A stretch of 64,000 bases of DNA from Mesostigma viride. Taxonomy: Eukaryota; Streptophyta; Mesostigmatophyceae; Mesostigmatales; Mesostigmataceae. Numbering within the stretch: the stretch's first letter is position 1; each line of letters opens with the position of its first letter. Below are positions 35,063 to 64,000 of this stretch, piece after piece. The translations under genes and the position numbers were made by a program. A model generated the notes under the pieces. It was not told the DNA's origin, searched no databases, and saw only the letters and a list, made by a program, of their open reading frames with translations. The stretch is from positions 9,703,468 to 9,767,467 of the forward strand of contig RPFO01000041.1 in the NCBI GenBank assembly GCA_009746045.1, written 5' to 3'.

Positions 35063-35194
35063 TTAGCGCTAGGCGTTTCCATTGGTCTTATCGTAGTATA
35101 GAGCTTTGACATGGCTCTGTATATAGGTTTATAGCTGGGCGTTTGCTTTGGTTTGAGTGATTTCACTCTGTTGTAAGTAATTATATTTTTAATC
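35063..35194 (+). mobile_element. Tiny LINE 3' tail with an 11-bp target duplication
   Basis: 132 bp matching the end of 15263-15552 (TAGGCGTTTCCATTGGTCTT to the TAATTATATTTTTAAT tail), flanked by TATATCGTGTG at 35052-35062 and 35195-35205. An extreme 5' truncation. Confidence 0.78.
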
Positions 35195-35205
35195 TATATC
35201 GTGTG

Positions 35206-35578
35206 GTGCCCTTTGTCCTGGAGGAGTTTGGGGCCATGGGGCCCCTGACCTCCGCCTTCTTCAAGGAGTGTTGCCGGCTCCGGGAGGACCGGCTGGACCT
35301 GGAGGGCCAGCGGGCCCCATGGTCGGCGCGGACTTGGACGTCATATTGGCGTCAGCGCTTGTCGGTGGCGCTGACTCGGGCCATGGCTGACATCATGCTC
35401 CGCCGTACGCGGGCTGATTTTGCGGTGCAGCATGCAGGGCTATTAGGTTCCTCCCGTTAGGCGTTTCCATTGGTCTTATCGTAGTATAGAGCTTTGACAT
35501 GGCTCTGTATATAGGTTTATAGCTGGGCGTTTGTTTTGGTTTGATTGATTTCACTCTGCTGTAAGTAATTATATTTTT
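35206..35578 (+). mobile_element. LINE 3' end with partial ORF2 C-terminus
   Basis: Begins directly after the target duplication of the preceding fragment. Encodes PFVLEEFGAMGPLTSAFFKE, then RLDLEGQRAPWSARTWTSYW and RQRLSVALTRAMADIMLRR, and ends in the same tail as the copy at 15263-15552, with which it shares nearly identical sequence. PFVLEEFGAxGP is typical of the C-terminal end of some LINE ORF2 proteins. Confidence 0.75.
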
Positions 35579-36095
35579 AATATATATATCAATGGATGTG
35601 TGTCCGATGGCATAACGTAACGATGGTTACCACGGACATGGTTAGAGGTCGATCAGCCCTATGTTCGACCCGTAGTTCGGCCCACTACAGTAACGTAAAT
35701 TAAGCGTGGAATATTCGCATGGAATGTTCCGGGCCACAAGGGTTGGAACAGCAGTGCCGACCTAGTGGCACTGCTTGGCATAAAGGCGTGCGAAGACGAT
35801 GGACAAGACAGTCGTTCGTCAATCCGCCGACTCACCCACCTCAGTCAATCAATCTGAGCTACGAATCTCTTCCTTTTAATACAATCATGTCTGACGCATA
35901 ATCTTGTTCAACTGCAATTGCAAGAACACAAGAAGGTAATCATTATAATGCCTCTGGGCCTACGCTGTGATGACAGCAAGTAGCCCATAGAATAGTGATT
36001 CCCTTCCCCTCTCAGGCAGGCAACAAACCGGGACGATGGTCCCGTAGATGGAAACGATCTTTCCCAACGTGCCTGGCCGATGGGTTTGGCACGTT

Positions 36096-36830
36096 ACACT
36101 GCTCTGCCCCTGACCTCTGTGACCTTCCTATTATCCATAGAACTGTCCACATAGAGAACCATGTCAAGGGGCTTGTACAAATCCACAGGACCCAGTATGA
36201 GAGGGGGAGACATCATGACAGCCTGCACCACACTCTCAGCACCCACCTCAACAAGCTGGGAATCAGTAAGTCGACTCAAGACCAGCAAGTCAGAGGCACA
36301 AATACTTGCAAGCCATGGCAGCCAGCATGCCCCGGATGGTGGCACACCTGGCCTGCGTGATGGGCTCCTGCAAAGCATCTACAATCTGCTGGGGATAATC
36401 CTTACCACCCTCCATCTTGATATACCATGTGCCCTGCTTCGATCTGGAACAGCGTAGCCTGCATGCCACAAAATACCATGGGCTCATTCTCCACCATGTG
36501 CTGAATCTTACCCAGCTCAAAACGCTTCTGGATCTTGGCCAAAACAGCCTCTACCCAGGCAGGTGGACCTATGAGATGCAGGTCATCACCATGCAGGGAG
36601 GCAAAGACAGGGAGGCCCTCATAGGTCCCCTGGAACAAGCAGGGGTCCACTGGAGACACAGAAAAGCCACAGGTACTCTTATTAAGAAATTTCTCTAGGC
36701 TCTTCCTCCAGATTATAGGACTGGACCTGAGACCTTCCAACCCTTTCAGAATTCTCAGGTACCTGGCCTTTATCTCTGCTCTCCATACAGCAGGCACAGT
36801 CACAAAGAAAGGAGGGATATCACGCCAAGT
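36096..36830 (-). pseudogene. HGDD-type reverse transcriptase fragment
   Basis: On minus, YLRILKGLEGLRSSPIIWRK, CLFQGTYEGLPVFASLHGDD, LHLIGPPAWVEAVLAKIQKR and VFCGMQATLF, then in other frames QIVDALQEPITQARCATIRG and YVDSSMDNRKVTEVRG. Residue by residue this follows the RT of the intact element (GVEGLQSSPIIFRK, QWHGDDWRLIGPRAWV, PFCGLTYTL, YSDANLESRTITQLR). The fingers region is missing, and RNase H resumes at 34857 after an insertion. Confidence 0.78.
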
Positions 36831-37444
36831 CTGCCTAGCCTGATCTTGATCACCCTTAATTAAGGGGAGGGGACATGCCTAAAGGGCACTTTTCTGGAAA
36901 CCATACCTGTTCATGTGCTACAAATCCAAAGATGATTGGGGACCATAAATATGATTAAAAAAAAAAAATCCAGCCACTTGGGGGGGGTACTAGCCCCCAC
37001 CATACACCGGTAACGCGCTAAAAATAGAAAAAGATGCTATTTTAGTGACATTTTTCCTAGGGCAGTGGGCAAACATATTGGGACCAAATCACATTTGGTT
37101 CCCGCCGCACATTTGAAAGTGCTGTCCTCCGGCTTTTTGCCTTTGCACTGTGTGCAGTTCTTGGACGTTTGGAATCATGGCATGGCTAACGTGATGACTG
37201 ACTAGCTAGACCTTTTCAGTGGTTTTCCATTTGCGGGTATTTCCTCGTAAATGGCGGGAGAGCGATCGCAGCAATGGTGCTCACCACTAGACACTCCCGG
37301 CCAGTTAGGCTCGAAACACACGCCCTGATCAAGCATGCTGTTTCCGGCCCCACCGTCTAGGTCATCTAGTCGCTCTACACGTAAGCCAGCCATAATTTCA
37401 ATGCACAAGGATACACATTTCCATCACCATTCATCTTCATCCTC
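36831..37444. other. No feature recognised
   Basis: AT-rich sequence with an A9 run and short frames only. Nothing supported on either strand. Confidence 0.45.
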
Positions 37445-37543
37445 CTGAACGACTCGAACACGCGGACAAGATAACGGCAGGCTCGAGCTACCATGGTCCG
37501 GATTCTCCCGATTTCTGGCCTGCGCTGGTTGTCTCCTTGATAT
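37445..37543 (+). repeat. Dispersed 95-bp repeat carrying the RILPISGLRWLSP tail, second copy
   Basis: Nearly identical to 5187-5285, from GAACGACTCGAA to TTGTCTCCTTGAT. See that entry. Confidence 0.75.
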
Positions 37544-39576
37544 TGGGACCAAATCACATATTCCCATATAGTTCCCTGACTTTTGAGAAAGTCTGCCTAA
37601 TTTTGAGCACAGAATAATCATGTCTAGACACATTGATGGATTTTCCCGCAAAAAGGGTACTTTTTTCAAAAAAAAAAAAATCAAATCATAAACACATGGA
37701 ATAGTGCCAAATCATATATTCCCAAATACTAGAGGTTGGGGGACATGCAGCCCCAAATTTTCAGGTCATTCTGACAAGCGCAGCCCTATTTGATGGATAT
37801 TCCTAGATCACCACCTGTGATGACGCTGACGGAGGTTTTAGCTAGTATTTAACCACACTAACACCCCTTTATACATCTAAGCCACGTGATAACTGGCCAA
37901 ACCACATAATACCATCCTCTATTGTGGTTCCTCCTATGTTCAAGGTTTGACGACGTTCTGACAAGAACTGCCCAAGTTACAACCATTCCAAGACGGCCAC
38001 CCATGTAGACACTACAAGGAAATTAAAGAACCATTCAGCCACACTAGCACCTCCTTCTTCATCAAAGACACCCGCAAACTGACCAAAGCACACATAATTA
38101 ACTCTTGCACGCTGACGGCAACGCATGCTCAACGTGGGGGGTCATTGTGACAACAAGAACTACTCAAGTCGATGGGTTTCCTATATGACCACCTGACAAG
38201 GCACTAAGGACCACTCAGTAAGTTAGTAACCCCACAGTGCCACTTCATATGCCATCCAACATGCACCAAAACCATGCTGAGTATGTTTACAATGTACAAA
38301 GGGGTGGCCACGCACCTCATATGTCTTCATCATCCCTCCAGCTTGGCCAGCCTTGTAAATATGTTCATAGCCTTGACGATGGTAGCCCTAATATGCCTAA
38401 GCAGCATTTCCTATGTCTCTCCCAGGTTAGAGTGTAAGGTTGATGCCAACCAAGCTAATCAACTCAACAACACCTCCTAAACTGTCCTTCCCGGCATGGA
38501 TGACAAACTGGGACTATGGAGGGCAAGGAACCAAGTAGGAACATGGTATATATAGCTTGCATGCAGTCATGCATGTCAACCATGGTTGGCTCAGCACATT
38601 GTAGTCTTGTCACATCATCATAACAAAGGAAAGCTCAAACAACCATTGGTGCCAGCTATCTACATGCAGTCACACAAATGCAATATCTCCAACATCATCA
38701 TCACTAAAACACTTCCATCCCTGCACGATAAAATGCAAAGAAACCATTGGCGGCCCTTCAGCGCATGAACGCTGTGATGCCGCTGCGGCCTGCGAAGAGA
38801 GGGTGCGTCACTCTCAAACAACAAGAAGCGACCATACGCACAACATCCTTGCAAGAACACGTTTTATGAAATGCCTTATACCTTCCCGAAGAGCTATAGG
38901 CTGCGACTGAAGCGGCCCTGATCACGACATCAACGAAAACAATCTAAAGCTGCCAGGTATTGGACAAGACAACGGCAAGCGACGGCGAGCTAGCTGGCGG
39001 AAACTGCCCAAAAAGAACGCAAAAAAAATCGAACGATGAGCTCATAGAAGAAAGCACTGATATAGCAGATAACATTCGCGACAAATCTGTACCTCGCCCT
39101 CGTAAATCCCTCCCCCAGGCGCGCAACAACAGCCGTTATTCCATGGACAGGTCAGACACGCACTGCGCAGGTCTGAACAATTACTTACCGATAATGGCCA
39201 AAAATCTGGCAAAAAGCACCAGCTCGGTTTAGAATTCGATGCAACCGATATTAACGCCTGCTTTACGGTCAGAACAACCCCCAAAACCGCGTTTTTACAG
39301 CCGCTATCATGAATTCTATTTCATTCCGCGCGACCAAAAAATTCAGATTACCCCCCATGCCGATGGCATAAAAAAACAACAGCGATATTGTAAACCAGCT
39401 GATTTCCCCCACAAACTAACATCATAAACTCATCGTCTTTTAGATTCGAGTAAAACTTTTGCATTTCGCCTGCCCTAGCTAGTGTGGTAGTTTCGCCTGA
39501 ACGCAGTCGCCATGGCCACTTCCGCAAGGGGTGCGCGCACCGTGCACGTGAAATTTATGACCTTCGGTACCGGCGC
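37544..39576. other. No gene recognised
   Basis: About 2 kb of AT-rich sequence. A 90-codon frame at 38960-39232 (MDKTTASDGELAGGNCPKR) has protein-like composition but no recognisable domain and no second copy, so I do not call it a gene. Confidence 0.45.
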
Positions 39577-39600
39577 GAATTTTTTGGCGCCAAAAAATTC
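39577..39600. repeat. Perfect 24-bp palindrome
   Basis: GAATTTTTTGGC is followed immediately by its exact reverse complement. A partly similar CGCGCCAAAATTC block is at about 49172-49190. Confidence 0.88.
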
Positions 39601-39653
39601 GGGCACGTCCCGTCCCCTTAAAAAGCTCTCTTGAAATCAATCAGCACAGAGCT

Positions 39654-39834
39654 ATAATTAATTTATTAATTAGACTCGTGCTCCCGTTGGGGAGTCACGG
39701 AGCATTAACCCCGATGGATGGATGGGTGGGTGCAAACAGTCCTACCGGTCTAAGCTATCTATATCAGCTACCTACGACATCTATCTAACAGCATTACTAA
39801 CTACAACATCTATCTATACAGAGCTATAGGGCAC
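39654..39834 (-). repeat. Dispersed repeat R1, copy 3 (inverted, truncated)
   Basis: Reverse complement of the 3' two thirds of R1 (4450-4693), including CTCGTGCTCCCGTTGGGGAG and the TTAATTAATT-type tail, here at its left end. Confidence 0.78.
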
Positions 39835-42086
39835 ACCCTTAACCAGAAAAGACAGAAAGATACACAGCAGAATCCTCCACGTGTCATGCAGCATCCCTGG
39901 AGTATAGAGCTCCTCATCTGACAACTGGCCAATGCCATGATACATACTCAGTTAAACAACTGGCCTTACATGTGGCACCTGGACACCATCCACCTCCTTG
40001 AGCTTGAGGACAAACATCAACCTGAGCAGCTGGTGAACTTATGGCAGTTCATCCACAGGTTCTGCACAGTTGGAGACTATCCACTCATGCCCAGAGTGTT
40101 TTCTTTTATGATTGTTTTCTTTTATGATCCTTCCTTGCAGATCACAGGTCAAGATCAAGGCTGAGGAAGTGAGAGACTGAGAGACAAAATGTTCACGCAG
40201 AAAATTGGCAGCTTGAGATGCCCTTGCTGCCTTTGTTCATTTCATTATATAGGCAATTAGGTGGCAAAGGTAGAACTGCCACATGTCAAGCAAGGGTTGC
40301 AACACTTCTAGATTCCTAGAATATTTGTTGTGTGATTGCCAGATGGCATTTGCTGAAATACAACATAAGGAATGATTGCCATCTGTCAACATGCAAATAA
40401 CCATCATATGGAACTGCCATCTGTCAATAAACTAAGCAATGTGCTCTACACATCACCTAAAAATGGCCTTTTTTGTTACATGGGGTCATATCTCCCACGC
40501 ATATAGTCATATCGGGGTGCCTTTCTGGACTTAAGGTCCCCCTAGGACCCTGTTCACATCACATAAATTGGGGGGCCAGCTGACCTATTTTTAGCATCAA
40601 ACCGTGACGTGGAAAAGTGCAGAAAACGATGTTGTCCAGGCATAAGGAGGCATAGCAGCCACACACAAGTAGTAAATGTAGTCCAATTCAGCTGGAAATG
40701 GTCATGCTTATTAATTTACATCCAAAGACAAAAACCGCCCTTAAGTATGCAATGTAGGACCAAACTATGTGCTATAATTCTGGCATACATGAGCCAAAAC
40801 ACCGTTTTTGTGCATTATTTTCAAACCTATGAAGCCCTTGCCAGCACATATGTGGCCCAATCATGCCAGAATTCGTCACATTAATAGCACAATAATTGAA
40901 TTTACACTAGAACACAAGTTGGACATATTAGGACCACTGCCGGCCCACTAAAAGTGACGGATGCAAGCAGAAATAGAGCGATTTTTGCCAAAATACTCCA
41001 TATTCTGTGCCATTGTCTTGGAAAACTTTGCATTCTTCACTCAATTATCATCATGGCTGTCATGGGATTCATAAACATGCCACTGGGGCTGGATACGTTA
41101 ACCAACACAGACTAAAGAAGCGATCATCAAGGGACAAAATCACCATCAATCACAGTACTTACTGGCATTCGAAACAAGCACCGTAGTGCCTACAAGCCTC
41201 AAGAAGGGGAGCTTGGCTGACCAGTCGTGCCTGTCGGCTGACCAGTCTCTTTTCTAAACGGGCCCCGCTCGGCAGCACACACAATCTCCTTTGCAGTACT
41301 TGGCCCACTCTGCTGGGCACCCCTGCTGTGCGTGTCTTATAGCAGCTAATCCAAATATATATCTGCCAGGTGCCTCTCTGCTACATGGAAATATAAAGCG
41401 CAATCAAGGACAGCAGTGGCTTGGGCTGCTATTCAATTGAGCTCAGCACCTAGCTGCTGTACAACATGATTCTGCATCAGTGCCTGTCCTAATTGCGCCC
41501 CCCCGCCCCCTTGCCATCATCGTCATACTCATCATAGTCTTTAGAACGTGCACTGAACTCCAACCCTTGGACAGTCCATAGGTCATTAAGAATCTGTGCA
41601 TGTAATGCTAGCTCTTCTCAGTTGAACTCATCTACCACCCTCTCATGGTCGTGTCATCTCTCATGTAATCCACCTAGGTTTATCGTGGCCACTGATCGTT
41701 CCGCCCCTCCTGACATAAAAATCTGGGCAAACACACTGTTGACATCACCCTTCCTTTTTAGCCTACATGGCTCCTCATGTTTATCCTTATCTCATCCCTC
41801 AACACACCTAGAATTGTCTATTCATCCCCCTTGCATAGGTGGTGCATAGCTGCGGCGGGATGGGGGATTGCCAAAAATAGGTTTAAAATGCATGGGATGG
41901 CACGGGGAGGCTCACACTCATCGGTTTACAATCACACTCATGTGCTAACAATGTCCCTCTCTGCTTTTGACACTGCATGCACATGCATTTCCTACCGGCT
42001 AATAATATCAAGCCTTGAGTGTGGTTTGGTGCATCAAGAGAAATGGCAGGTCAGCTGAGTGCATCAGACCACATTTGTGTTAAGTG
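39835..42086. other. No gene recognised
   Basis: About 2.2 kb without supported genes or repeats; short frames only. A copy-number search would be needed to say more. Confidence 0.4.
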
Positions 42087-46795: not shown

Positions 46796-46863
46796 GTACT
46801 TCGCATTTGTAATGCATTATTATGGTGTGTGGTTGTGTGTCTTGGCACGTTTCTTATGTGCAG

Positions 46864-49630: not shown

Positions 49631-52127
49631 TCACACAGGAATGCAGGAGCCGTCCTCGAAGCAGCTCGAAGCGTGGTCGCGGAAGTGCCTCCCGCCAGTG
49701 AAGCGGAGACCGAGGCCGTGGGTTGCCAGCAGGTAGCGGATGACCCGCTTGGCAGCCTGCATATCACCCAGCGTGGGTGATTGCATCTGTTGCGCTAGGC
49801 GGTTGACACCGAATGCCACGTCTGGCCGCGTCCATGTGGTGACGTAGATGAGCGCCCCCACTATTTGCTGGAACACCTCCCGTTGCGATTGGTCACACTG
49901 TCCCCCCTCGCTCAACACGGCACCCGGGACAACCGGGGTGGGAACACCACGACTCTCACCTAGCCCAAGGCGGGCAGCAATTTCTATGATGTAGGGAGAC
50001 TGGTGCAGGGCAAGGGAACGGGTGACGCTGTCAATAGAAAGACACACACCTAGAAACAAGGAAGGGTGGTCCGAATCGGACAGCTGAAAACGTGTACCAA
50101 GGCGAGAAACCCAGGCAGCTACCCAAGGGGCAGAGGGGCTGGCAACGATCATGTCATCAACATGTACAAACACAAAGCCCCTGGCACTGGGATAAAGGTA
50201 AAGACATGTGTCTGTAGCGCTAGGCACTGCACCATCCGACACGAGATGAGAACGGAAGGTGCGATGCCAATTGCGCGGAGCCTGACGTGTGCCATACAGG
50301 CTGCGATGAAGCTTCCATACAAGAAGCTCGCCAGAGGCGTCATACTCCTCATAGCCCAGGGGTGGACGTACATAGACATCCTCCTCTAAAGGAGCATACA
50401 AGAACGCAGTGCGGACGTCTAATTGATGCAGAGTATAGCCATGCGTGACTGCAAAAGCAAGAACCAAACGCACTGTGGAGGAACGAACAGTGGGGCTAAA
50501 GATGTCCTGAAAATCAACACCCTCACGCTGGGCATAGCCCTTGCATACAAAACGTGCTTTCTCACGTCCATCCGACTTACGTGCATACACCCAACGGGAA
50601 GGAAGGGCCGAAGTGCCACGAGGAAGAGATGACCTACTCACCAAAGAAAAAACCTTGTGAGAACGAATAGAAGCCATCTCGCTATCCATGGCGGACTGCC
50701 ACGCAGGAAGAGAACGAGCTTGTTGCCAAGACTTAGGGACGTCCAGGTCGACACTAGTGGCATATACATCCTCGACCACATCACGAATAGCAGCGTAATT
50801 TGGGCAAAAACGGGCCCACTTAGGAGAAGCAAGACGTTGAGAAGAGGAGGTCCAACCATAGGCGCCATATGTGTCACTAGAGGGACAGTAGCCATCGCCA
50901 ACATTTTCCTCAATCGTTGCAGCAGCTATCACCGAATCCGCCCCTGCCTGGTTGCTGGGCGCTGAAGATGAAGGTCGCTGCAGTGCGTGGATGGCTCGCT
51001 GCAAAGCCGTTGCACTCGAAATTTGAGGCGCAGACGCAGGCGAGGGCGCAGGAACTCCTGGCGCAACTTGGTTGCCGGCGTCCGGCACCGCATCAGAAAT
51101 TTCAGAGTCAGGAGCAGCACCCAGACCAGGATGCTCAGCGTTGCCACTGCCGTCTGCACCGGTGACAGTGCCCAGCTGTTGGCGAGCCTTGGCCCTGGTG
51201 ACCGGACCATCAGGTACCGAGTCAGGCACAGCAGTGACAGGCGGCAGCACTGCAGGCTCAGTGGGTGCAGGCAAAGGTACCAGCGCCACGCCAGATTCCG
51301 AGGCAGACTCAGGTGCCGGCAGCTGGAAGTTGACATCTGGACTCGCGACGTGCAGGGGAGCAGAATTTGCTCGCCAAGTCTCATGCATCGAATGACTGAT
51401 GGAGCCTGCGAATAACGTCACGTGAGCCTGGGCGGAGAATCAGGTAAGCATGCGACTCCAAGTCATAGCCCACAAAGATTCCAGCCTGGGCTTTGTCCTC
51501 CAGCTTGCCACGTGGCCCTTCTACACGAAAGTAGGCAGGGCAGCCGAAAATGCGCAAGTGCGACAGGTCGGCATCAACGCCTTGAAAAAGGCGATGAGGG
51601 CTAGCAGAGTCTGCATTGGCCTCGAATGGCTGCCGATTGAGCAGGTAGACAGCACACGCAAAAGCTAGGGCCCAGAAAGTCTTGGGCAGGGTAGCATAAT
51701 GCAGCATGCACAGTGTCATTCCCATCGCCAAACCCCACATGCGTTCTGCAACTCCGTTTTGCTGCGGACAGTAGGGGCTGGAAAATTCTTGGTGAACTCG
51801 ATGGCGAGCACAGAGGGAGCGGAAGTCCTCGGAAAGAAATACTGCGTCATTGTCGGTCCTTAGAAGCACAGAACCGTCGTAGTAGGGCCTGATATCCCTT
51901 GACAGCAGTCGGTCGAAGTGCAGTGGCACCTCACTCTTCTGGCGCATAGGAAAAGACCAACGCCACCTTGTAGCGTCGTCAGTGATGCCCAGAATGTACT
52001 GGGAACCGCCCAGTGATGGCTGCATCGGCCCCATGATGTCCCCATGCAGCTTGGCACGAGGCACGGTCGAGCGTGGTTGCCCAGCAGCGAAGGAGTGTCG
52101 CCTAATCATGCCAGCAGGGCACGACGG
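49631..52127 (-). pseudogene. Minus-strand copia pol: integrase, RT, truncated RNase H
   Basis: Integrase comes first: CPSCPAGMIRRHSF, HGDIMGPMQPSLGGSQYILG, then DNDAVFLSEDFRSLC and SSPYCPQQNGVAERMW (D, D and E of the catalytic core). A frameshift near 51400 leads to the linker and RT: REKARFVCKGYAQREGVDFQ, LDVRTAFLYAPLEEDVYVRP, LYGTRQAPRNW, FVHVDDMIV, TRPDVAFGVNRLAQQMQSPT. RNase H is lost shortly after LATHGLGLRFTGG, the frame ending at 49631 near the 3' LTR. Its 5' portion lies at 56242-57527, the two halves being separated by the LTR element at 52133-56236. Confidence 0.92.
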
Positions 52128-52132
52128 GCAGC

Positions 52133-52561
52133 AGTTGTGCTCCCGAGTGGCATCTATCCGCTGGCCGGTAGTCGCCGGCCTGGGCGCCTAGTCAGGTGGG
52201 CATCAAAGATTGGTGTCTAGATGCTAGTCGGTGCCTAAGCAAGGTACGGAAGCCAGTGCGCGCCGGGACGGTCAGAGAACCGTCGCCCTCGGTAGCACAG
52301 ATCCGCTGAGTGCCGGTAGTCTCGGGTTAGAGGCTCGAGCATGCACTATCGGGTAGCCTACCGGTAGTCTCGGGTTAGAGGCTCGAGCATGCCTTATCGG
52401 TTAGCGCCGCGCCGCTGAGCTCCTTGCGGCCTGGCCAGCTGCAAGGGTTCAATAGCAATCAGTGGCGGCTGCGGGCTCAGCCTCCCACAATCGGTTCCCC
52501 AAACAACAAAAATCCCGTCTCCATCGCCGGCGTGCTAGCCAGCGGCGAAGGGCATTCAACT
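52133..52561 (+). repeat. 5' LTR of the compact element
   Basis: Starts AGTTGTGCTCCCGAGTGGCA and ends GGGCATTCAACT. Contains an internal duplication of GGTAGTCTCGGGTTAGAGGC (about 52314 and 52363). Confidence 0.95.
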
Positions 52562-52607
52562 TGTATTCACAACAGTCAACATTACCGTTGACCATTTTTC
52601 TGGGCTC

Positions 52608-55469
52608 ATGGCGCGTGGCGCGGAGCGAACGGCAGCTGCAACCCAGGACCAGGGAACGCAAGCATCAACTCCGGCGGATGGGAGTGGCGCAGCCACCGTG
52701 GCGACTGAGCCAGCTGGTGGCTCGGTCAGCACCGCTCCGGGGCAGCAGTCAGCACCAACTGCCCGGAAAGTTTTCAAGAAAGAAGAGCTGCCAAGTAAGC
52801 TGCCAGAAATTCTGACGCCGTCCGCCGTGGAGGAGTTTATTAACAGCCTGGGCGAGCTCCGGCAGGACTACAACGAACTGTCCGACGCAGTTTTCCTCAC
52901 CAAGCTGCGCCGGTCAGAGGTATGCAACGAGGCTACGGGTAATGCGGACGTGCGAGGGGTCATTATCAACGCCAGCAAAGAGGCGTGGACCTGGCCCGAC
53001 ACAGTGAAGGCCCTGCAAGAGGTGCTCGACACCTCAAGCTTTCCTGACGAGGAAAAGGAGGGGCAGGCGCTGGTGCGCAACCTGTCGCTTGACCCCAATT
53101 ACCTCAGCTCGGACATGGCCAGATTCGCGGCCCAGGTCCGGAGCAAGGGTGTCTTGAAGCACATGAGTAGCGAATATTTACTCAGCGCAGTTCTGGATGC
53201 GCTGGGGCTGACGCCAGAGAGCCGTGCCAATGTCAAGGCCGGTCTCGGCATGAAAATTGCGCTAGCTTCTTCCGTGGTAGTGGGCACCCCGGACGACCAG
53301 AAACGGTTCAACGCAGCCATGGCGCACCTCCGAGAGATGTTCAAGGACCGTGGCGGCCCCAGGCGTAACAACAAGCTGCCGACAGTTGCTCAGGTAAACC
53401 CTGTGCCTGCCTCGACCCCGCCAGCAGCTTCTCTGTCGGACTTGACCACTCTTGTTACCCAGCTGTCCACGACGGCGGCCGAGGCCTATTACCCTTTGCT
53501 GCCCAGTAGTTGGTCGGAGGTTGCGGGGTTTGACGGGCAGCGGGCTTATAAGGTGGCTGGGCAGGTGCTCATGCCCATCCTAGGGGTAGATGTCCCCGTG
53601 CAAGTGCTAGAGGGTTACAAGGGGATCACCCTCATAGGTAACCCATTTGTTTCCCTCCCCGGGTTTTCTGTGTCAGGCGGCTTGGTGACCCTCGAGGGGG
53701 TGGGGAGCATAGGATTATACCAATATCATGTAGCGCTTGCAGCCCTCACGGGCCGGGGTCCCCCCGAGGCTATTAATCACCCTGAGGATTATGCCACTGC
53801 AGTAGGGGCCATTCGCGGGGCGGAATATACGGCAGAGCCGCTGGTAGCCGATGTCACGCAGCCGCAGAAGTGTCACCCCAGCAGTCTTGGCATTTTTCCC
53901 TGGAGCATCGCCACTAAATCTCCTTTTAGTTATCCGCAGTTTAAGGAGGACTGCCGTGACCCTGTCAAGTTCCATAAGTGGCGCGCGGCTTTCTTGCGCG
54001 CGCAGCTGGAGTGGGCGATGTATGGGGTGTATGGGGAGTTGATGGAGGTGCCGCAAGGGGCGGTAAAGCTGAACTTGAAGTTTGTGCTCAAGTATAAGCA
54101 GGTCCTCCCCACTGACCCTGTCACATTTCATGTACGGCCCTGTGTCACGGAGTTTAGGGGCTCGTCTGAGTTGTCGGAGGAGGAATTGTTTACGCCCGGG
54201 CTGTCGCAGACCACTAGCCGGGTGTTAACATCGGTGTTCTTGGGGCTGTTGGATCGGGGGTTGGACTATGCCATGGCCTGCTCAGATTTTCAGCGGGCCT
54301 TTCTCCATAGCGACCCGGCAGTGGCCGAGGAAGTGTGGCGTGGCACGGTGTATGTGGTCAAGGTCCCTTTGGTGTGGCAGGGGGAGCTGCGGTGTGTGTA
54401 CTTGCGGCTTCTCCTTGGTGTGGAGGGCCTGCAGTCTAGCCCCATCATCTTTCGCAAGACGGCTGAACGCATCTTTGCTAGCATGGGGGCGGTGTTTTCC
54501 CGCATCGATAGCAACCTCTTTCACATCCACACACCCAACCCACACGAGCCCGCGTTCATGCAATGGCATGGGGATGACTGGCGGCTTATTGGACCCCGGG
54601 CGTGGGTCCGGCAGTTCATAACCGCTGTGGCCAAGCTTTTGCCCACTAGCCGCACGTTGTGGCTGGACCCCGACACCCCCGTCCCTTTCTGTGGCCTAAC
54701 CTACACTTTGCACCGCACACCGGTTGGCTGGTGCATTGACATGGCGGCCAAGCAGGAATACGCCGACAAGCTCGCGCAATCGCTGCCTGAGCGGCTGGAT
54801 GCGTCCGCGGGACCGCAATTGCGCGGCCAGCTGGGGTGGCTCGCGGGCACGGTGCGACCCGACCTGTCCATCTACGCGCGTGCGCCCGACGCCGTGCTTG
54901 CGGGCATGGGAGCGCAGCATCTTCGGACGCAAGTCTTGGCGTCACCGGGCCTGCGCGTGTGGGGGGTTGATATCACCCGCCCGGTGGCAATGACCATCTA
55001 CTCTGACGCGAACCTGGAGTCGCGTACCATCACGCAGCTGCGCGCGCGGGAGGCGGCCATCTTTTTTCTTGATAGCCCCACTGGGCAGCCCACTATTGTC
55101 GACTGGTATAGCCGCATCCATCAGCGGGTAGTGGTAGACAGCAATCGCGCGGAGTGTCGCGCGTTCATTTCCGCTGTCGACCATGCGTGTTATGTGCAGC
55201 ATCTTTTGCAATGGATTGCGGATAAGGCCCGCGTGGCGCTGTCGCTCCGCATGCGGCTGTGCACAGATAGCAAGTCAATAATTGAGTTTCTGAATAACCC
55301 GCTCGCCTCCACCACCAAACTAGATTACCTTGTGTTGGCCGAGTCCGCCACGGTGTTGGATGAGCGGCGGTGGATCCCCGAGAGCGAGAATATTGCCGAT
55401 GCCTTGACCAAGCCAGCGATGCTGTCGGGGCCTCAGTACAAGCTGCTGCGGCAGCTCATGATGACATGA
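52608..55469 (+). CDS. Gag-like / reverse transcriptase / RNase H polyprotein without integrase
   Basis: 953 codons in one frame, 46 bp after the 5' LTR. Residues 1-60 are Ala/Thr/Gln-rich; about 65-265 is helical and gag-like (SEYLLSAVLDALGLTPESRA resembles a segment of the gag at 59410); about 285-420 is beta-rich (VAGQVLMPILGVDVPVQVLE, GITLIGNPFVSLPG) and might be a degenerate retropepsin fold, but has no D-S/T-G. RT follows: CSDFQRAFLHSD (Asp560), GVEGLQSSPIIFRK, MQWHGDDWRLIGP (HGDD 654-657). RNase H: TIYSDANLES (Asp800), RAECRAF (Glu849), CTDSKSI (Asp887), ENIADALTKPA. No CCHC knuckle and no integrase zinc finger or D-D-E core. Start chosen as the first in-frame ATG. Probably functional for RNA packaging and cDNA synthesis, with integration supplied by another element. 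Confidence 0.95.
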   Translation: MARGAERTAAATQDQGTQASTPADGSGAATVATEPAGGSVSTAPGQQSAPTARKVFKKEELPSKLPEILTPSAVEEFINSLGELRQDYNELSDAVFLTKLRRSEVCNEATGNADVRGVIINASKEAWTWPDTVKALQEVLDTSSFPDEEKEGQALVRNLSLDPNYLSSDMARFAAQVRSKGVLKHMSSEYLLSAVLDALGLTPESRANVKAGLGMKIALASSVVVGTPDDQKRFNAAMAHLREMFKDRGGPRRNNKLPTVAQVNPVPASTPPAASLSDLTTLVTQLSTTAAEAYYPLLPSSWSEVAGFDGQRAYKVAGQVLMPILGVDVPVQVLEGYKGITLIGNPFVSLPGFSVSGGLVTLEGVGSIGLYQYHVALAALTGRGPPEAINHPEDYATAVGAIRGAEYTAEPLVADVTQPQKCHPSSLGIFPWSIATKSPFSYPQFKEDCRDPVKFHKWRAAFLRAQLEWAMYGVYGELMEVPQGAVKLNLKFVLKYKQVLPTDPVTFHVRPCVTEFRGSSELSEEELFTPGLSQTTSRVLTSVFLGLLDRGLDYAMACSDFQRAFLHSDPAVAEEVWRGTVYVVKVPLVWQGELRCVYLRLLLGVEGLQSSPIIFRKTAERIFASMGAVFSRIDSNLFHIHTPNPHEPAFMQWHGDDWRLIGPRAWVRQFITAVAKLLPTSRTLWLDPDTPVPFCGLTYTLHRTPVGWCIDMAAKQEYADKLAQSLPERLDASAGPQLRGQLGWLAGTVRPDLSIYARAPDAVLAGMGAQHLRTQVLASPGLRVWGVDITRPVAMTIYSDANLESRTITQLRAREAAIFFLDSPTGQPTIVDWYSRIHQRVVVDSNRAECRAFISAVDHACYVQHLLQWIADKARVALSLRMRLCTDSKSIIEFLNNPLASTTKLDYLVLAESATVLDERRWIPESENIADALTKPAMLSGPQYKLLRQLMMT

Positions 55470-55807
55470 GTTTTTTTTTACCGTGTGACCTGTCGTCTTT
55501 TTGCATGGGAATGGGCGCTTCTTTCATCTGTGAATACATTTCCCTAGACCTGACAGGCGGCCAGTGTGCCTAATAACGATGCATGTGGTGCAGTTGCACC
55601 CAAGTAGAAAAGGAGGCCGGGAGCAAAGCCCGGGTGTTTTTGGCGTGCTCAGATCCCAGCGTAGGGCACCCTCCTTGGGGTTTAGGATTTGGGGACGGTC
55701 AGTGTGCCGTTACGTGTTTCTCTACTTGAACGTACGTAGGGTCAGTGCTACCCTATTGCCCCTCGCTTTAAATAATTTATGATAATTATTTAAAAAGAAA
55801 GTATGGG
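55470..55807 (+). other. 3' untranslated region and polypurine tract of the compact element
   Basis: 338 bp between the stop codon and the 3' LTR. It ends AAAAAGAAAGTATGGG, a plausible polypurine primer. No gene seen. Confidence 0.75.
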
Positions 55808-56236
55808 AGTTGTGCTCCCGAGTGGCATCTATCCGCTGGCCGGTAGTCGCCGGCCTGGGCGCCTAGTCAGGTGGGCATCAAAGATTGGTGTCTAGATGCT
55901 AGTCGGTGCCTAAGCAAGGTACGGAAGCCAGTGCGCGCCGGGACGGTCAGAGAACCGTCGCCCTCGGTAGCACAGATCCGCTGAGTGCCGGTAGTCTCGG
56001 GTTAGAGGCTCGAGCATGCACTATCGGGTAGCCTACCGGTAGTCTCGGGTTAGAGGCTCGAGCATGCCTTATCGGTTAGCGCCGCGCCGCTGAGCTCCTT
56101 GCGGCCTGGCCAGCTGCAAGGGTTCAATAGCAATCAGTGGCGGCTGCGGGCTCAGCCTCCCACAATCGGTTCCCCAAACAACAAAAATCCCGTCTCCATC
56201 GCCGGCGTGCTAGCCAGCGGCGAAGGGCATTCAACT
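55808..56236 (+). repeat. 3' LTR of the compact element
   Basis: 429 bp, matching the 5' LTR base for base as far as I could compare. Confidence 0.95.
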
Positions 56237-56241
56237 GCAGC

Positions 56242-57527
56242 CTGGCGCACCTGGAGCCCGCATGATAATGTTCGATGCAGGTATGGCCGCCAGCTTGCGA
56301 ATGCGCTCAGCACCTGCATGTCCAAGTCGCCAGTGCCACAATAGTGCAGCAGGGTTGTCTGTGGTGTGGTGGGCAGCAGGGGTAGTCACAGTCTGTGATT
56401 CTTGCAAACCGTAGACGTTGTTCTGCACCTTGATAGGTACCTTGCTGCCTGCAAAGCATGCCACGCCCTGCAGTAGGTTCACCTCGTGTCCCTGCTGATG
56501 CAGCTGGGCCACGGAAAGAAGCCTTGCACCCAGAGAGGGCACGTGCAGAGCATGAGGCAGATGCACCACCTTGTTGGCGACTCGTAGCTTGAGCGTCCCC
56601 GTCCCCACAGCCTTCAGCCGGCCTCCGGAGCCCTGGATGGCCAGGTTGGTTGGCTGAACCTTGATAAAGTCAGCCTCCTCAGGGCTCATGTGGCTGGATG
56701 CAGCAGAGTCCAGAATCCAGAAAGGTACGCCCGGCACTAGGCGCGTAGTTGCAAACGCGTAGTCCACGGGAAGCTCAGGAGCCTCCACCGTGTTGTTTGC
56801 TGTCGCAGCCTGCTTCTTCTTCTGGTTCTTGCGCTTTGGCCTCTGCTGGCCCTTCTTCCTGCTGAGATGTGGGTACTTGGTATAGCACGTCTCCTCCGCA
56901 TGTCCTTCCTTTCCGCAGAATGTGCAAGTCGGCCTCCCCGGCTTGGTTGGTTGGCCTGTGCTGTATGCTTGGCCTTGGGCAGCTGCTGGCTCAGGCTTGA
57001 CCGTGGTGGTGGAACGCGTCCCCACAAGCAGGTCATCTGCTTCAACAAGCATGGCCTTCTTCACCTCCAGCAGGGGCATGTCCTCATCGAACCTGGTTGA
57101 AACGAGGGCAGGCCTATACGCATCAGGTAAACCACCTTTCAGCGCAGCGGCAAAATCATTGTCTGCCAACACCCCCCCCACATCCCTGTACTCACTCAGA
57201 AGCAGTTCTGAAGCGGTAAGATAGTCCATCATGGACTGGTTGGGCTGCTTGGTCAGCCTCATTAGGGATGTCCTCAGGTCGTGCTTGTTGCTCTTGGTCA
57301 GTTTAGGCTGCTCAAACACCTCCACCAACTTAGCAAAAAGCAAACTGCCCTTTCTCTCACCAATGGTCTTTGCAATCTGGGCTGCTCTGCCAGTGAGGCA
57401 CGCCAGCAAGGCTGTGTAAACAACCTTCTCTTGCTTGGGTGTAGCCTCCTCAGGCTTGGTAATGACCCCCTCCAGATCATAGGCCTCCAGGTGGGCTTGG
57501 AAAAGCTCCTTGGTCTCTCCCCATTTT
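56242..57527 (-). pseudogene. Minus-strand copia gag, protease and start of integrase
   Basis: Minus-strand frame entering at the LTR insertion (57527): ETKELFQAHLEAYDLEGVIT, then gag (LACLTGRAAQIAKTIGERKG, TASELLLSEYRDVGGVLADN), a CCHC knuckle CTFCGKEGHAEETC, the aspartic protease site PFWILDSAASSHMSPEEADF (D-S-A here) and the pre-integrase motif LWHWRLGHAGAERIRKLA. It stops where the compact element enters; pol continues at 52127. The gag N-terminus is cut off by the element starting at 57528. Confidence 0.92.
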
Positions 57528-58174
57528 AGTTAGCATTTTGGGCAACCAATATGCTAAGTGGATGCAGTTTGGAAAGACCTTTCCAACGCCGTGCTGACTG
57601 CCTGAAACAGACAAGGGACGAGAAAGATATGAGGTCCCGAAGTCCTAGCCGTCCGTGGCCGACTAAGGTGCAGTCCTCTGGTATAGTGGACAGGACACGT
57701 GGCAGGCCGTGCCTGCACAGGCTTAGCCTGGCTATCACGTGACTGTGGTCCACGTAGACCAGAGAAGCAGCAGTCTGTGACTGGTGGAATACTGGAGCTG
57801 GCACAGGGCTGCAAGGATACTAGGCCTTGCAGGCTTGTGACAGGTCCTGTACTTCCTAGGTTGCAGAGTCTAGGCAAATCCAGTTCGTCCTGGCTCTACA
57901 CTGATGCCAGTGGACGTTGAGGATTTGCCTGTCCGCCTGCACGTGCCTCGTCACGCCGATGGGAACGAGGAACAACACAAAGGATATAGCTTGGTCATGG
58001 GGGATGACCAGCTATCTTGGCAAGCACGAACCGAGGCTCCCACATTGGACGTGGAAACGCTCACCGTGGTCGTGGCTTGGTGCACGGGTTAAAAGGTTGC
58101 TGCCTTGCAACTTTGGCTCATCCCGTTGTGCGCGTGAAAGACCAGGAGCTCACAGCTCTGGTTGGTTGCTAACT
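57528..58174 (+). repeat. 5' LTR of the right-edge element (copy B)
   Basis: 647 bp from AGTTAGCATTTTGGGCAACC to GGTTGGTTGCTAACT, terminal inverted repeats AGTTAGCA/TGCTAACT. Most of it matches the reverse complement of 32747-33402. Confidence 0.8.
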
Positions 58175-58205
58175 CGTATTATTGCATTCCTGTTTGCGGG
58201 GTTTC

Positions 58206-59630
58206 ATGTCGGCCGAGGCTCGGGTTGAAACACCTGAGTCGTCTCCCAGGCGCGAAGCAGCACCAGAGTTGCCGGCGCGCGAGAACGCTTTCTATCCCTA
58301 TACTCATCAATCCAACGCTTCCACCTTCGTGCAGGCGGCCTACGTTGCGCGGGGCCTTGCGGAGGGCGGTTGGGTGGCTGTGTTTGGTAACGCAGCAGGG
58401 CCGTCGGCGAACGACCCCGTGGTGATGAGGATCCGGGCGACGACGTCGCCAGGAGAAACAGGGAGGGTGTGCACGGAGCGTCTCGTTGCTAAACGAGACG
58501 AGATAGCTTCGTTGATCTACAGTTTAGAAGTTGCGTACCAGGGCGGGCACTTAACCATCCAGGCGCTTGACTTAGCGCGAGAGACGCTGGGCCAGCTGGT
58601 GGCCATCTGCTTAGGTGGAACCAGGTTGTATAATCACTGGGTGGCGACAAGCTCGCTGGGAGAGGGGACCGACGCGTCGCACATAATTCGGGACGCGCAG
58701 ACGCGCGAAGCGGATAGCCCGTGGGATTCCGCCGAGGTGGTTGCTCAGACTTGTGAGCATTTGGTTAACATTCTGATCCAGGAGTCGCGTGGTCACGCGG
58801 ATCACTGGGTTATCACTACACGTCCGCCAGGCATCTGGTCGACCTTGGACACGCCGAGGGTACAGAGCAGGCCAGGGGCGACTGGGCCAACGGTGACGGT
58901 AATCACCGGTCGGGAGGTCACCGACGAAGACTTCCACGAGCAATTCGTGGACAGACCGACGGGCATCATAGCCAGGTCGTCACAGCAGATTGACGAGGGT
59001 GACGGCACGAACGAGGGGTACTCAGCTCGGCGCAGAGCAGAGTTGCACATTCCGTTTGAGCCGGAACACGATTTTGCTGAAATCGGTCGGGGGTCTCGCA
59101 ACGTTCGGCGAGGTGGTGGTAGCAGGTGGGTCAGGAACCTTCAGTGGTATCGCCGTGGCAGTGCGGCCAGACTGCCGGCAGAGCAGACAGCAGCCGGGAG
59201 GCCGGTGAGCCGTGTGCTAGGTCCTTACAACGCGCGGAGGAGGTCCGCTCAGTTCCACGAGTGGGGACACCGGTGGCACGCACAGCGCAGGAGCGTGAAG
59301 AGGAGGCAGCACCTGGAGAGCAGCCGGCGGCCTCCTCAGGCAGCACCAGCGCTTGAGCCTGTTCTTCCTTGTCTATCGCCTGTTTTGTTTTGCCATCCCA
59401 CTGTATATAATGCCTCGTGGCAAACCGGGAGACGGCGACAAGGGCGAGATGGAGGCACCGGCTGGGGAGAGCCAGGAGCCACGGAAGGACAAGGAGCAGC
59501 TGGTGGGGGCGGCCATCCCTGCCAGCGACGGCGATGGGGGAAAGCGACCAGGCAGCAAGAGGCGACACGAGGACTCGGTGGAGGTCCGAGGCGCGCAAGG
59601 CGCGGGCGACAGGGCCATCTGATGCAATAA
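58206..59630 (+). CDS. Unrecognised ORF upstream of gag
   Basis: A frame of about 474 codons from MSAEARVETPESSPRREA to a TGA near 59628, overlapping the start of gag (59410) in another frame. The first 330 residues look like a folded protein (YVARGLAEGGWVAVFGNAAG, LIYSLEVAYQGGHLTIQALD, NHWVATSSLGEGTDASHIIR, ADHWVITTRPPGIWSTLD); the rest is Arg-rich, and the end is probably a read-through overlap. No protease, RT, integrase or envelope signature, no signal peptide and no membrane segment. It lies between LTR and gag, an unusual place. Function unknown. Confidence 0.55.
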   Translation: MSAEARVETPESSPRREAAPELPARENAFYPYTHQSNASTFVQAAYVARGLAEGGWVAVFGNAAGPSANDPVVMRIRATTSPGETGRVCTERLVAKRDEIASLIYSLEVAYQGGHLTIQALDLARETLGQLVAICLGGTRLYNHWVATSSLGEGTDASHIIRDAQTREADSPWDSAEVVAQTCEHLVNILIQESRGHADHWVITTRPPGIWSTLDTPRVQSRPGATGPTVTVITGREVTDEDFHEQFVDRPTGIIARSSQQIDEGDGTNEGYSARRRAELHIPFEPEHDFAEIGRGSRNVRRGGGSRWVRNLQWYRRGSAARLPAEQTAAGRPVSRVLGPYNARRRSAQFHEWGHRWHAQRRSVKRRQHLESSRRPPQAAPALEPVLPCLSPVLFCHPTVYNASWQTGRRRQGRDGGTGWGEPGATEGQGAAGGGGHPCQRRRWGKATRQQEATRGLGGGPRRARRGRQGHLMQ

Positions 59631-60774
59631 CGGTGGCGAATGGGCAACCAGCCGTGGAGAAGCGTAAGAGGGACACCTCCGCTGACGGCAATGGTAAGAG
59701 GCTTCATGTGGATGTGTTCTCCCCTGTGCCTGCTGGCCCAAGTGGTGCTGTTGCTGTGACACCCACTGTGGTGGAGCCGGTGAAGGCGCTGCGAGGGTCG
59801 AGGCCTCACATGAGTGCAGTCACTCTTATGAATGGACAAAAGCCTCTTAACCCACCACTAGCCCAGGAAGCTCTAGACAAGTGGCTAGAGGACATGGAGC
59901 TGGTTGTACTCTCCGTGGACCCCACTGTCAACTTAGTACAAGTGTTTCACTCGTCCACGTGCAACAGGGACTCGTCAGAGCGTGTCAGGGAGAAGGCTAG
60001 GACCGGTGTCAAGGATAAGCTAACCTGGGCACAGTTCCTGGATGGGTTGAGGGAGGAGTTCTCTAACAAGGTTCTCAACCTCACCAACTACTATAAACAT
60101 CAGTATGACACCTTTGAGATAGTGGGTCCTGTGGCAGAGGAATGGGCTAGGCTCAACCGTATCAGGGACAAGGGGGCCAAGTATGGCTTCCTGGTCACAG
60201 ATAGGGCCTTGGCAGACTATTTCCTGGACCGTATGGGTTTGAGTGTGGATGGGAGGAACAGTGCCCGCATGTTTCTTAACCAGACTGATGGCTCCTTGCG
60301 TGCTCTGGAGCTTGTAATCCTCAGCATAAGGAAGCCAGATCCTGCCTGCAAAGCTATCCAGTCCCATGGCAGCAATGCCACCTCCGCTGTGCAGGGCCAA
60401 GGTGATGTCCCCGGGTACCCAGCCCGTGATGGGGCAAGGCCCAACAAGCGTAAGCGCTTCAGGCGCCAGAGGCAGGGGGCTCAGGGTGGCAAGGGTGCAG
60501 GTTCCCAAGGGGGGTTGGGAGCCAGCAAGCTGGTGGTCAGCAGGGTAAGGGTGGCCAAGGGCAAGGCAAGGGCCAAGCTCAAGGCAACCAGGGCAAGCAG
60601 GGTGGGCAGTCTCAGGGAGGCCAGGGGAAGCCTGGCAAGGGTGGGGCTGGGTCTGGGAAGAAGGGTGGAGCATGCTTTGTGTGTGGCAAGGAAGGTCACT
60701 GGCGTCGTGAGTGTCCTGACAGGAAGGCCAAGCCTGCTGGGGCAGGGGGCCAGTCTGGGGGCAGCAGTGACTAG
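59410..60774 (+). pseudogene. Gag with CCHC zinc knuckle, frameshifted
   Basis: Starts MPRGKPGDGDKGEMEAPAGE, shifts near 59610 into the frame carrying KWLEDMELVVLSVDPTVNLV, DGLREEFSNKVLNLTNYYKH and ALADYFLDRMGLSVDGRN, then shifts again near 60450 to end GGACFVCGKEGHWRRECPDR (CX2CX4HX4C) and a TAG at 60772-60774. The segment around DYFLDRMGLSVDG corresponds to LSAVLDALGLTPE in the compact element, suggesting a shared gag origin. Gag packages the element RNA. Two frameshifts disable it unless they are programmed. Confidence 0.72.
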
Positions 60775-60812
60775 CTACATCATCCCCTGTAAATAGTCAA
60801 TCACCCCTTGGG

Positions 60813-61841
60813 GAAGGTGTGCTGGATGTACATAAGGACGGGGGTGTGCCCCTTGTGCAGCACCAAGGGTGTAAAGATGTTGTTCTTCCACTGGATTGCA
60901 GTAACAATGCTGCAGCTGAATTCCCTATGCCTCATGCAGGTGGTGGGTCTCCAGCAGGTGCTGGCCTGGAGGGCCAAAGGACCTTGCTGGAAGGGCCTGG
61001 AGCGGTCCAGGGAGCAGGACCTGGCTTGGGGAGTCAGGATGGCCTGCAGGGAGGCCCTGGAACCTCAGGAGTGGATCATGTGTCCCCACACACGGTTCAG
61101 ACGTCTCGCCAGGTCAGTACTGAGAGAGTGCTGAGCTATGCTGAGGCTGGCCATAGGTTGCATCACATGTTTGGGCATTCTGGGCAGGCAGCAATGTTTG
61201 CTTGGAAGCTAGGTAGGGAGCCTTTGTGGGAGGCTTGCCAGGCTGCTGCTGAGAACTGTGGTTGCCAGGAGAATGCTGTTCACCCACCTCAGTCCCATGC
61301 TAGGGAGCCTGCTAGGCAGCGTGGCGACATCCAGATGGATATCCAGCATATCAGGGGCTTGTATATATTGGTGGGGGTGGACAGGTTCAGCAGGTATAGG
61401 CTGATAGACGTTCTGCCTGGTATGCAGGAGCACCACTTGTTGTTGGGTATGAAGGCCCTGATCCCAGGCTTTGGGGTGTGCAAGAGTGTGCAGGCAGACT
61501 TGCAGTTTGACTGTTTGCTCAAGCATCAGGACCAGCTGCCGTGTAAGCTGGTAGTAGTCCCCAGGGAGAGCCATGGGCAGCAAGGGGCTGTAGAGAGATC
61601 CATACGTGAGGTAAAGACAGTGGTGCTAGCAGCAGAGTCAGTGCCACTTGTGGCATCTGCCTTAGAGAGGGCAGCCTGGTGTAAGGGGATAGAAGAGCAG
61701 CTGAACCACAGGGTTAACTATTACTTTGATGGTGTGGCTGTCTCTCCCCTGGCCCTGCAATATAGCTTATTGCCTGAGAACGTGGTGCAAGCCAGTCTTA
61801 GGAAGGCAGACAGGCTGTTTGCCCAGCTGAGACGTAAGGAC
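60813..61841 (+). pseudogene. Integrase, interrupted
   Basis: A frame containing a zinc-binding pre-integrase segment (GHRLHHMFGHSGQ, then ENCGCQENAVH) and an rve-type core: RGDIQMDIQHIRGLYILVGV (first Asp), CKSVQADLQFDCLLKHQ (second Asp) and ESHGQQGAVERSIREVK (Glu). It ends after QLRRKD at 61841, where a 1.76-kb insertion enters, and the same frame resumes at 63605 (FYWEDGHKNW). Integrase precedes RT, the copia-type order. No protease is visible between gag and integrase. Confidence 0.78.
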
Positions 61842-63604
61842 AAGTGTTAATCATCCCACGGTCCTAAATTTAGGACTTTGTCCTAAATCGTCCTAGTGGT
61901 CACTATAACCGAGGTACCGGGGGGGGGGGGTCACTATATGGACCGTACCCCATGTGGACCGTACCCGGCATGATGTACCCGACCCGTGGTACCGGCACAT
62001 GGTACCCGGATTCCGTACCCGGGTACCGGGTATAATGGCGGGAAAGTAGGTACCTCGACCAAAAATATAACCGATTTTGGAGCGAAAAAGTGGGTGCGGG
62101 AATGAAGTGAGGTGGATATGGCGACCTGACAATCGTGGCCGGCGTTTTCACGTGCGTTTATCATTTCGGGCGCCCAGTAGCAAAAACGAAAGGTTGTTAG
62201 TTATGCTTAAAGGCTGTGAATATTTTCTGCGCAAGTTTTTATGTGTAGCGCTGTATCACAGCGGCACAACACAAATGGGTCGCAGATCGCCTGCTCGCGG
62301 AGGGTCGATTTTGGCACAAACATGTTAGTGTATTAGCAATGGTGGTGCGAATCAAGCCAGGAAATTTTTGTGGACGATTTTTATTATAGTCTGGAGTTTA
62401 GAAACGGAGTATTTGACATGGGAGCGCCTGGGCCGTGATATTCTTGCCCGATTTCCATTGTCGACCATGTTTTAGGGACGTTCAGGCTGGGCAGCGAGCG
62501 CACCTTATAGGTCTTCACTTTCGGTATTTCTTGGACCTAGAACGCAGCACAAGCGTGGTTTATATCATTGTCGAACCGGTTGGCCAGCTTTGGTGCGCTC
62601 AGCTCTCGGAAAGCTGACCTCGCTGCGGATTTCAGCGACTTTTTTGCAACCATCTGGAATGAGGCGACGTAAGTAGCAGGTAAGTGCCGGGTTGTCCTAG
62701 ATCATGAGTGTAACTGGCAACGCTGTCGTGGTGTTTTGAGTCAGCCAGCTATGCCTAAAAAGAGGGGACGCTCTCTGTGCACATAACTGTCACACATAGT
62801 TGGTTTACGTCATACAATTTTTTACGTCTCTATCTTCGTCGTCCGCTGCAGCTAAAACACACATGCGTAAGAGCAGTTTTACTCATGTGTTAGTTATAAA
62901 CCATGGTCCTATGGCCTGCAGTCGTTCAGGGTGTTCTCAGACAGTATATACAGTATGGTTTACGTGTTACATGCACCCTGAATTCGCTCACAAAGCGTTG
63001 CATGTTAGCACAACGTTGTTTTGTAACTTGATTTGGCTGCATTCATGTGTTAGTTGCAATGCAAATGCAATGTTTTTTCATCGCTGGGTGGTGCCGGTGG
63101 CCAGCATGTCCGTGATGTCAAAGAAGGTTTGGCATATGCTTAGAGAAAGTTTACCGCAAGGGGTGGGCCATGTTCAAGCCGGGCAACCTCAGCAACCATG
63201 CAACCCTATATTGCATTACCTGCACCATCTGTGACACCGTTAATCACGCGTATATATAGAGGCAGCCACAGCAGGGTATGGCCTTGTTATACGCTGCCCC
63301 GCCATCCCAAGGCCTCGTAGGGTCCCCTAGCGCTTGTAAGATGCTCAAGGGACCGTGTGGATAGCATGGTCATGCGTTGACAATAATTGGTCCTAATGGT
63401 CCTAAAACCCACATTTTGGCCAAATTCGCGCTTTGAGGTCTGGCAGGTGGCAGGGCCCATTCATGCACTAAATGTAATTATTTGACCCCAGGTTTTTGAT
63501 AGAAACTAAAAAAGTGTGTTATCTGTCATGGGCACGAATGCCAGGGTCAAATTTTAATGTTTGCATATATATTTTTTCATTCCACTTGGTCCTAAATTTA
63601 GGAC
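61842..63604. mobile_element. Unclassified 1.76-kb insertion with GGTCCTAAATTTAGGAC at both ends
   Basis: The 17-bp motif occurs at 61860-61876 and 63588-63604, with more GTCCTAA motifs inside (61879, 61889, about 63390 and 63400). AGGAC is repeated at 61837-61841 and 63600-63604, and deleting one copy plus the interval restores the integrase frame. The left end has a cluster of GTACC/GGTAC motifs (61910-62055). No coding domain recognised. Superfamily unknown; true termini uncertain because the outer ends do not form clean inverted repeats. Confidence 0.6.
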
Positions 63605-64000
63605 TTTTACTGGGAAGATGGACACAAGAACTGGAATGTGCTGAGGCCTCAGGTGGGGCTGAAGGTCAGGATGTGGAAGGAACCATCTATTCCAGGCAAG
63701 CGGGGGAAGTGGCAGGATGGGGTTGTCACTCGTGTAGAGGAAGCTAACAGATCTTGCCTGGTGGCTTTGGAAAAGGATCCAAGGCACGTGTACAGGTTGT
63801 CCTGGGCTCATGTCAAGGAAAGAAGGCCACATGCAATCTGGCCTGCAGACGGGCCAGGCCCTCCCAGCTGGCCTTTTGAGGAGCCAGGCCAGAGCCAGGC
63901 AGCAGCAGCTAACAATCCTCTGGTGGTGGATGATGGTCTGTCCCTACTGGAAGATGACGAGCAGGAGGAGGCTGCTGAAGCAACTGTCACAAGGCCAGAG
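63605..64000 (+). pseudogene. Integrase C-terminal domain, open at the window edge
   Basis: Continuation of the integrase frame: FYWEDGHKNW, PQVGLKVRMWKEPSIPGKRG, KWQDGVVTRVEEANRSCLVA, RLSWAHVKERRPHAIWPADG, then an acidic linker (LEDDEQEEAAEAT). The small beta-rich pattern VRMWK...GKW.DGVV..V is typical of copia/gypsy integrase C-terminal domains. RT would follow off the window. Confidence 0.7.

Follow-up and report, generated by a model that had tools for sequence, protein, structure and literature searches.

Within a 64,000-nucleotide stretch of the Mesostigma viride genome (contig RPFO01000041.1, positions 9,703,468 to 9,767,467 of the forward strand; hereafter the window), a 4104-bp long terminal repeat (LTR) retrotransposon on the plus strand at 52133..56236 has an open frame with reverse transcriptase (RT) and lacks integrase. 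This short element is almost certainly a single internal-deletion derivative of a young family, designated family A, whose copies of about 6.2 kb carry integrase, because long integrase-bearing relatives exist (all ten paired-LTR copies read) and a single occurrence of the deletion junction was found. As a single element the short copy is ordinary, and LTR retrotransposons often carry internal deletions; the parent lineage is of more interest.

The short element and its long relatives

The LTRs of the short element (52133..52561 and 55808..56236, plus strand, AGTTG...CAACT) are identical across 429 bp, and the target-site duplication GCAGC is perfect on both flanks (52128..52132 and 56237..56241). 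Its plus-strand frame (52608..55469) is open throughout 953 codons, fused by the deletion, and comprises a gag part from which the nucleocapsid with its zinc knuckles is gone (52608..53472), the rear of a putative retropepsin-like domain with the D-T motif deleted (53476..53700), RT with D560 and H654-G-D-D657 (53925..54827, limits approximate) and RNase H with D800, E849, D887 and D931 (54981..55418, residues in frame numbering). The deletion junction lies between the gag and protease-like parts (53473..53475). The stretch 3' of the 5' LTR, where a primer-binding site is expected (52562..52577, plus strand, TGTATTCACAACAGTC), has no TGG start; the first eight bases at this position in family A (TGTATTCA) are common to family C, a relative described below, and no self-primer complement of 7 nt or more to the LTR was found in either family. 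In Ty1/copia elements this site pairs with a mature or half tRNA or with a self-primer. A purine-rich stretch, read by eye, precedes the 3' LTR (55792..55807, plus strand, AAAAAGAAAGTATGGG).

The element is nested within the integrase region of the gag-pol frame of an outer, minus-strand Copia element, which encodes integrase (rve, SH3) and RT (RVT_2, E 1.1e-47) at 49631..52109 and gag, Pol_BBD and gag_pre-integrs at 56231..57409. Joining the flanks with a single GCAGC gave a 679-residue open frame across the empty site; Pol_BBD and gag_pre-integrs lie to one side of the joint, rve to the other. The insertion is clean and recent. A first-pass annotation had reported identical LTRs, a perfect duplication, an uninterrupted frame keeping gag, RT and RNase H without integrase or a protease active site, and a recent, precise insertion; our sequence comparison agrees with it on all these points.

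The LTR was searched against the organism's own genome (440 Mb, 2243 contigs; 40 of 304 candidates scored), revealing at least 42 family A LTR matches. In other copies paired LTRs are spaced about 5.77 kb apart, as against 3.675 kb in the short element. Thirteen further stretches were read, ten with two LTRs (L009-L018) and three with one LTR in the stretch (L019-L021). In all ten paired-LTR copies the short-copy sequence is split by about 2.1 kb of extra DNA, with a length difference of 2094 bp in six copies, 2092-2093 bp in three and 2574 bp in L013, which bears a further insert of roughly 480 bp. Outside the extra stretch, these copies are 98.2-99.9% identical to the short copy. Compared with the commonest long form, the short copy has lost 2094 bp, or exactly 698 codons, with CCACGACGG joined to CGGCCGAGG and a 3-bp microhomology, CGG, common to both. 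A 34-base junction pattern with up to three mismatches matched once in the 440 Mb, at the short copy itself, and the reversed control gave no match. Perfect 5-bp duplications, all different, flank nine of the ten paired copies; L018 has no perfect duplication, and its right flank is that of L011. Eleven variants are common to the short copy and L013, its closest sibling among the copies read, and set it apart from the other copies read at these sites.

In the first-pass annotation the short copy was seen as a type of element that dispenses with integrase, and longer integrase-bearing relatives showing it to be a single deletion derivative were named as what would speak against this. Such relatives are what we found: the ten paired-LTR copies read all carry integrase, and the junction was found once in the genome. 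Several points weigh against this conclusion. The 34-base pattern tests this exact deletion alone, and other integrase-less deletions were not searched for; the family A LTR count is a lower bound; three of the 13 stretches showed a single LTR; a second integrase-less copy could sit in unassembled sequence; and L013, the closest sibling, is itself broken in pol.

The loss occurred between short similar stretches, presumably through a template switch of the reverse transcriptase or later genomic slippage, and happened to fuse gag to RT in frame, so that the frame looks intact. An intact-looking frame of this kind can mislead. Integration was presumably the work of integrase from family A, encoded by the copy itself prior to the loss or by a full-length copy. 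Supply of integrase in trans, which the first-pass annotation had favoured, is thus possible, but it is not required, because the deletion could postdate the insertion or have occurred in the same reverse transcription.

A specific form of this proposal is that the short form itself transposed, its deleted RNA being packaged, reverse transcribed and integrated in one event by the integrase of full-length copies. The identical LTRs, the intact GCAGC pair and the frame left intact by the deletion fit such an event, and a gag-start frameshift common to L009-L012, which have four different duplications, points to mobilisation of defective copies as a possibility in this family. However, the junction was found once, so that the short form is not seen to have transposed again; a deletion that postdated the insertion, or arose in the reverse transcription leading to it, would leave the same picture; and the common frameshift is a single base that could partly reflect assembly. 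We give transposition of the short form somewhat less than an even chance.

TRIM, LARD and TR-GAG elements are non-autonomous LTR elements without the functions for their own movement and form a multiplied non-coding class. The short element resembles them in lacking functions needed for its own movement, but it is a one-off deletion in which gag, RT and RNase H still form one frame. A TRIM- or LARD-like subfamily would comprise several copies with one defective structure, whereas this junction was found once.

Coding content and variation of family A

The deleted segment of about 2.1 kb covers the nucleocapsid with its zinc knuckles, an in-frame TGA, the integrase and, D-T motif included, the front of the protease-like domain. 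Gag of the long copies extends through two zinc knuckles (CERCTGVGHTEANC and CRRCWAVRLPGHDPNTC) to AAG TGA CGT; 11 of the 13 stretches contain this sequence, and the region is absent from the other two. The TGA is followed, in the same frame as gag, by a 1249-residue pol, open in five of the ten paired copies (L009, L010, L012, L014 and L018), with the order integrase, integrase C-terminal domain, protease-like domain, RT and RNase H. The integrase has HHCC, two invariant Asp residues and Asp as the third residue. Because the 698-codon loss also took the TGA, the short copy reads as a single frame. No unusually stable fold was found 3' of the TGA when readthrough structures were sought (z +0.4 to -1.8, 60-150 nt).

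Among the ten long copies and the short copy, pol contains 18 synonymous and 6 nonsynonymous variants, two of the latter in one codon (sites 913 vs 2834, p 2.6e-7), and gag contains 7 and 5, respectively (p 0.016). The deleted part of pol has five synonymous variants and no nonsynonymous ones. These counts indicate that the long form, including its integrase, has been under selection.

Several other variants were observed in family A. The one-base loss near the gag start in L009-L012, whose 5-bp duplications are all different, lies at element position 499. At LTR position 414, L009-L012 and L018 differ between their ends, the 5' LTR having T and the 3' LTR having C, whereas L016 and L017 have T in both LTRs and L013, L015 and the short copy have C in both; standard LTR-element replication leaves both LTRs alike. 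Inserts are present after the TGA in L013 (about 480 bp) and in gag of L015 (about 245 bp), with ends resembling inverted repeats (CACTACAATACGG...CGTATTGTAGTG in L013), and are possibly small DNA transposons.

A probable rearranged polyprotein in three related families

Two further families, B and C, share the organization of the long family A copies. All three have the order gag, nucleocapsid (NC), integrase (IN), protease-like domain (PR), RT and RNase H (RH), LTR ends AGTT...AACT, and HGDD replacing YxDD. The integrase HHCC and two Asp residues are invariant, and the third residue is Glu in B and Asp in A and C. No protease was found between NC and IN in family A by Pfam or by eye. From these features we consider it probable that Mesostigma has a Copia-related lineage of the order gag-NC-IN-PR-RT-RH, in which a DT[M/N/Q] retropepsin-like domain has moved between integrase and RT, with a D-D-D integrase in two of three families, HGDD, AGTT...AACT ends, and a gag/pol boundary formed by an in-frame TGA in A and a -1 overlap in C. 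Since both A and C are young families and C has multiplied strongly, the arrangement would be a working one. No relatives were confirmed in viral contigs.

The region called beta-rich in the first-pass annotation, and placed there in the integrase slot, belongs to the rear of the protease-like domain, which in the long copies lies between the integrase C-terminal domain and RT. The annotation was right in that no integrase fold was found in residues 265-440 of the short frame. An alternative is that residues 290-365 represent a diverged integrase or an unrelated beta domain. This family A piece had no significant match in Pfam or PDB, and its AlphaFold model was uninformative (mean pLDDT 35); the model of gene model P0001 had a mean pLDDT of 44, with the RNase H part alone usable. 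In the long copies, however, integrase is encoded elsewhere, and the corresponding pieces of B and C independently have gag-asp_proteas as their best Pfam match, both below the cut-off (E 0.037, positions 11-90 of 92, and E 0.19, positions 13-89 of 92, respectively). A profile of the three families gave three matches in PDB, all of them proteases and weak (E 0.79-2). The alternative thus appears unlikely. D-T is invariant in A, B and C, with the Gly of D-T-G replaced by Met, Asn and Gln, and on sequence grounds the domain after integrase is taken as retropepsin-like.

The three families resemble Ty1/copia elements (Pseudoviridae) in having integrase before RT, in the RNase H ending ..ADALTK and in the 5-bp duplications of the short copy, nine of ten long family A copies and one family C copy (GCTAG), the duplications of Ty1/copia being 4-6 bp and mostly 5 bp long. 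The RT of family B comes closest to RVT_2, at E 1.2e-4 and 22.2 bits, below the cut-off of 31.6. The family A RT had no Pfam match, and hhalign of its profile to the outer Copia RT gave E 0.037; the family B integrase matched rve weakly (E 0.03). In contrast to Ty1/copia, the protease-like domain follows integrase instead of preceding it, and the AGTT...AACT ends, HGDD, the D-D-D integrase of A and C, where Ty1/copia has D-D-E, and near-invisibility to Pfam also set the families apart. They differ from Ty3/gypsy in that integrase lies before RT and not after RNase H, pol ending soon past RNase H.

If correct, a young and multiplied IN-PR lineage would show that the order of protease and integrase is not obligatory, and would raise questions about the cleavage of the polyprotein and about whether an integrase with D-D-D and a polymerase with HGDD are functional. 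Since A, B and C are barely detected by Pfam, genome annotations may miss such elements. A survey of 5410 Ty1/copia elements gives protease before integrase as the order, and elements with unexpected domain order were discarded in that plant survey (PMC6317226). The Gmr1 clade of Ty3/gypsy is described as having integrase in the copia position (PMC8220671); it is a precedent for integrase moved relative to RT, but it is a gypsy-type element with the copia integrase position, whereas families A, B and C exchange protease and integrase. LTR elements are mentioned in both genome papers on M. viride, and the words integrase and Copia are absent from the main text of each (PMC6947507, PMC7027972). 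Among the open-licence papers listed by literature searches, no title or abstract start concerned integrase before protease; this speaks weakly for the order being unreported.

Families B and C and other features of the window

A family B copy lies 3 kb downstream in the window (57528..64000, plus strand) and runs past the window end. It has a 5' LTR (57528-58174, AGTTAG...CTAACT), gag with CCHC (59417-60796) and integrase (60771-61847), followed by a 1.7-kb interruption and a frame that starts at 63602 and continues past the window end. This 842-residue frame contains the C-terminal domain, the protease-like domain (VDTNSQVSVI), RT (LHGDD) and RNase H. The gag and integrase frames are broken, the PR-RT-RH frame is intact, and no 3' LTR was found within the 10 kb read. 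Compared with family A, PR-RT-RH shows 34% identity over 685 residues (E 5e-115) and integrase 29% over 223 residues (E 3e-22); the weak similarity between the two gags, with a score reached by 7 of 300 shuffles, was not relied on. A decayed family B copy on the minus strand (32759..40089) retains parts of RT and RNase H (34499-40089), together with a stretch (32759-33404) 89% like the family B LTR. Upstream of its RT, where integrase or protease was sought at 39800-48500 (minus strand, three frames, stops as residues), no Pfam family was found.

Family C, the family of gene model P0002, occupies at least 70 places in the genome: all 70 places scored, out of 8090 candidates at first look, show a rounded identity of 100%. 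In the one copy read from end to end (L054 and L024), the LTR ends are AGTTGAG...TTTAAACT and TTTAACT and the duplication is GCTAG. Its gag has two knuckles and is overlapped by pol over 48 nt in the -1 frame. The 1224-residue pol encodes the D-D-D integrase, C-terminal domain, protease-like domain (VDTQASVSII), RT (WHGDD) and RNase H. A DTGA within the roughly 95 residues before integrase is chance-like, and this segment is too short for a protease.

Thirty family C loci, ranked by their match to P0002, were read; integrase is in one open frame in 12 and PR-RT-RH is open in 27. This difference, and the fact that gene models P0001 and P0002 begin past integrase and end at RNase H, might suggest an LTR lineage that retains RT and has dispensed with integrase. 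For family A this is refuted, and we regard such a lineage as highly improbable: P0001 and P0002 are the 3' parts of the 1249- and 1224-residue pols, which both include integrase, the ranking favoured RT, and no nonsynonymous variant was seen in the deleted part of the family A pol. The breaks in the family C integrase are mostly single-base indels in short single-base runs and may be assembly errors. With loci picked by RT match and indels in such runs, these breaks were set aside as a sign of trans-complementation.

In most family C loci, the integrase and PR-RT-RH frames are one base out of register at a C8/C9 run between integrase and protease. Of the 30 loci (L024-L053), 27 share a 230-base stretch with C8, and L024 and L034 have C9; the run would be a site of frameshifting or else the result of a systematic error in the assembly.

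Elsewhere in the window, long 9-bp tandem arrays at 2638-3339 and 6081-6867 lie on opposite strands, are about 84% alike and have long open frames through both. The stretches 23932-31316 and 42082-47461 are 93-98% identical in several blocks, consistent with a large repeated segment or element.

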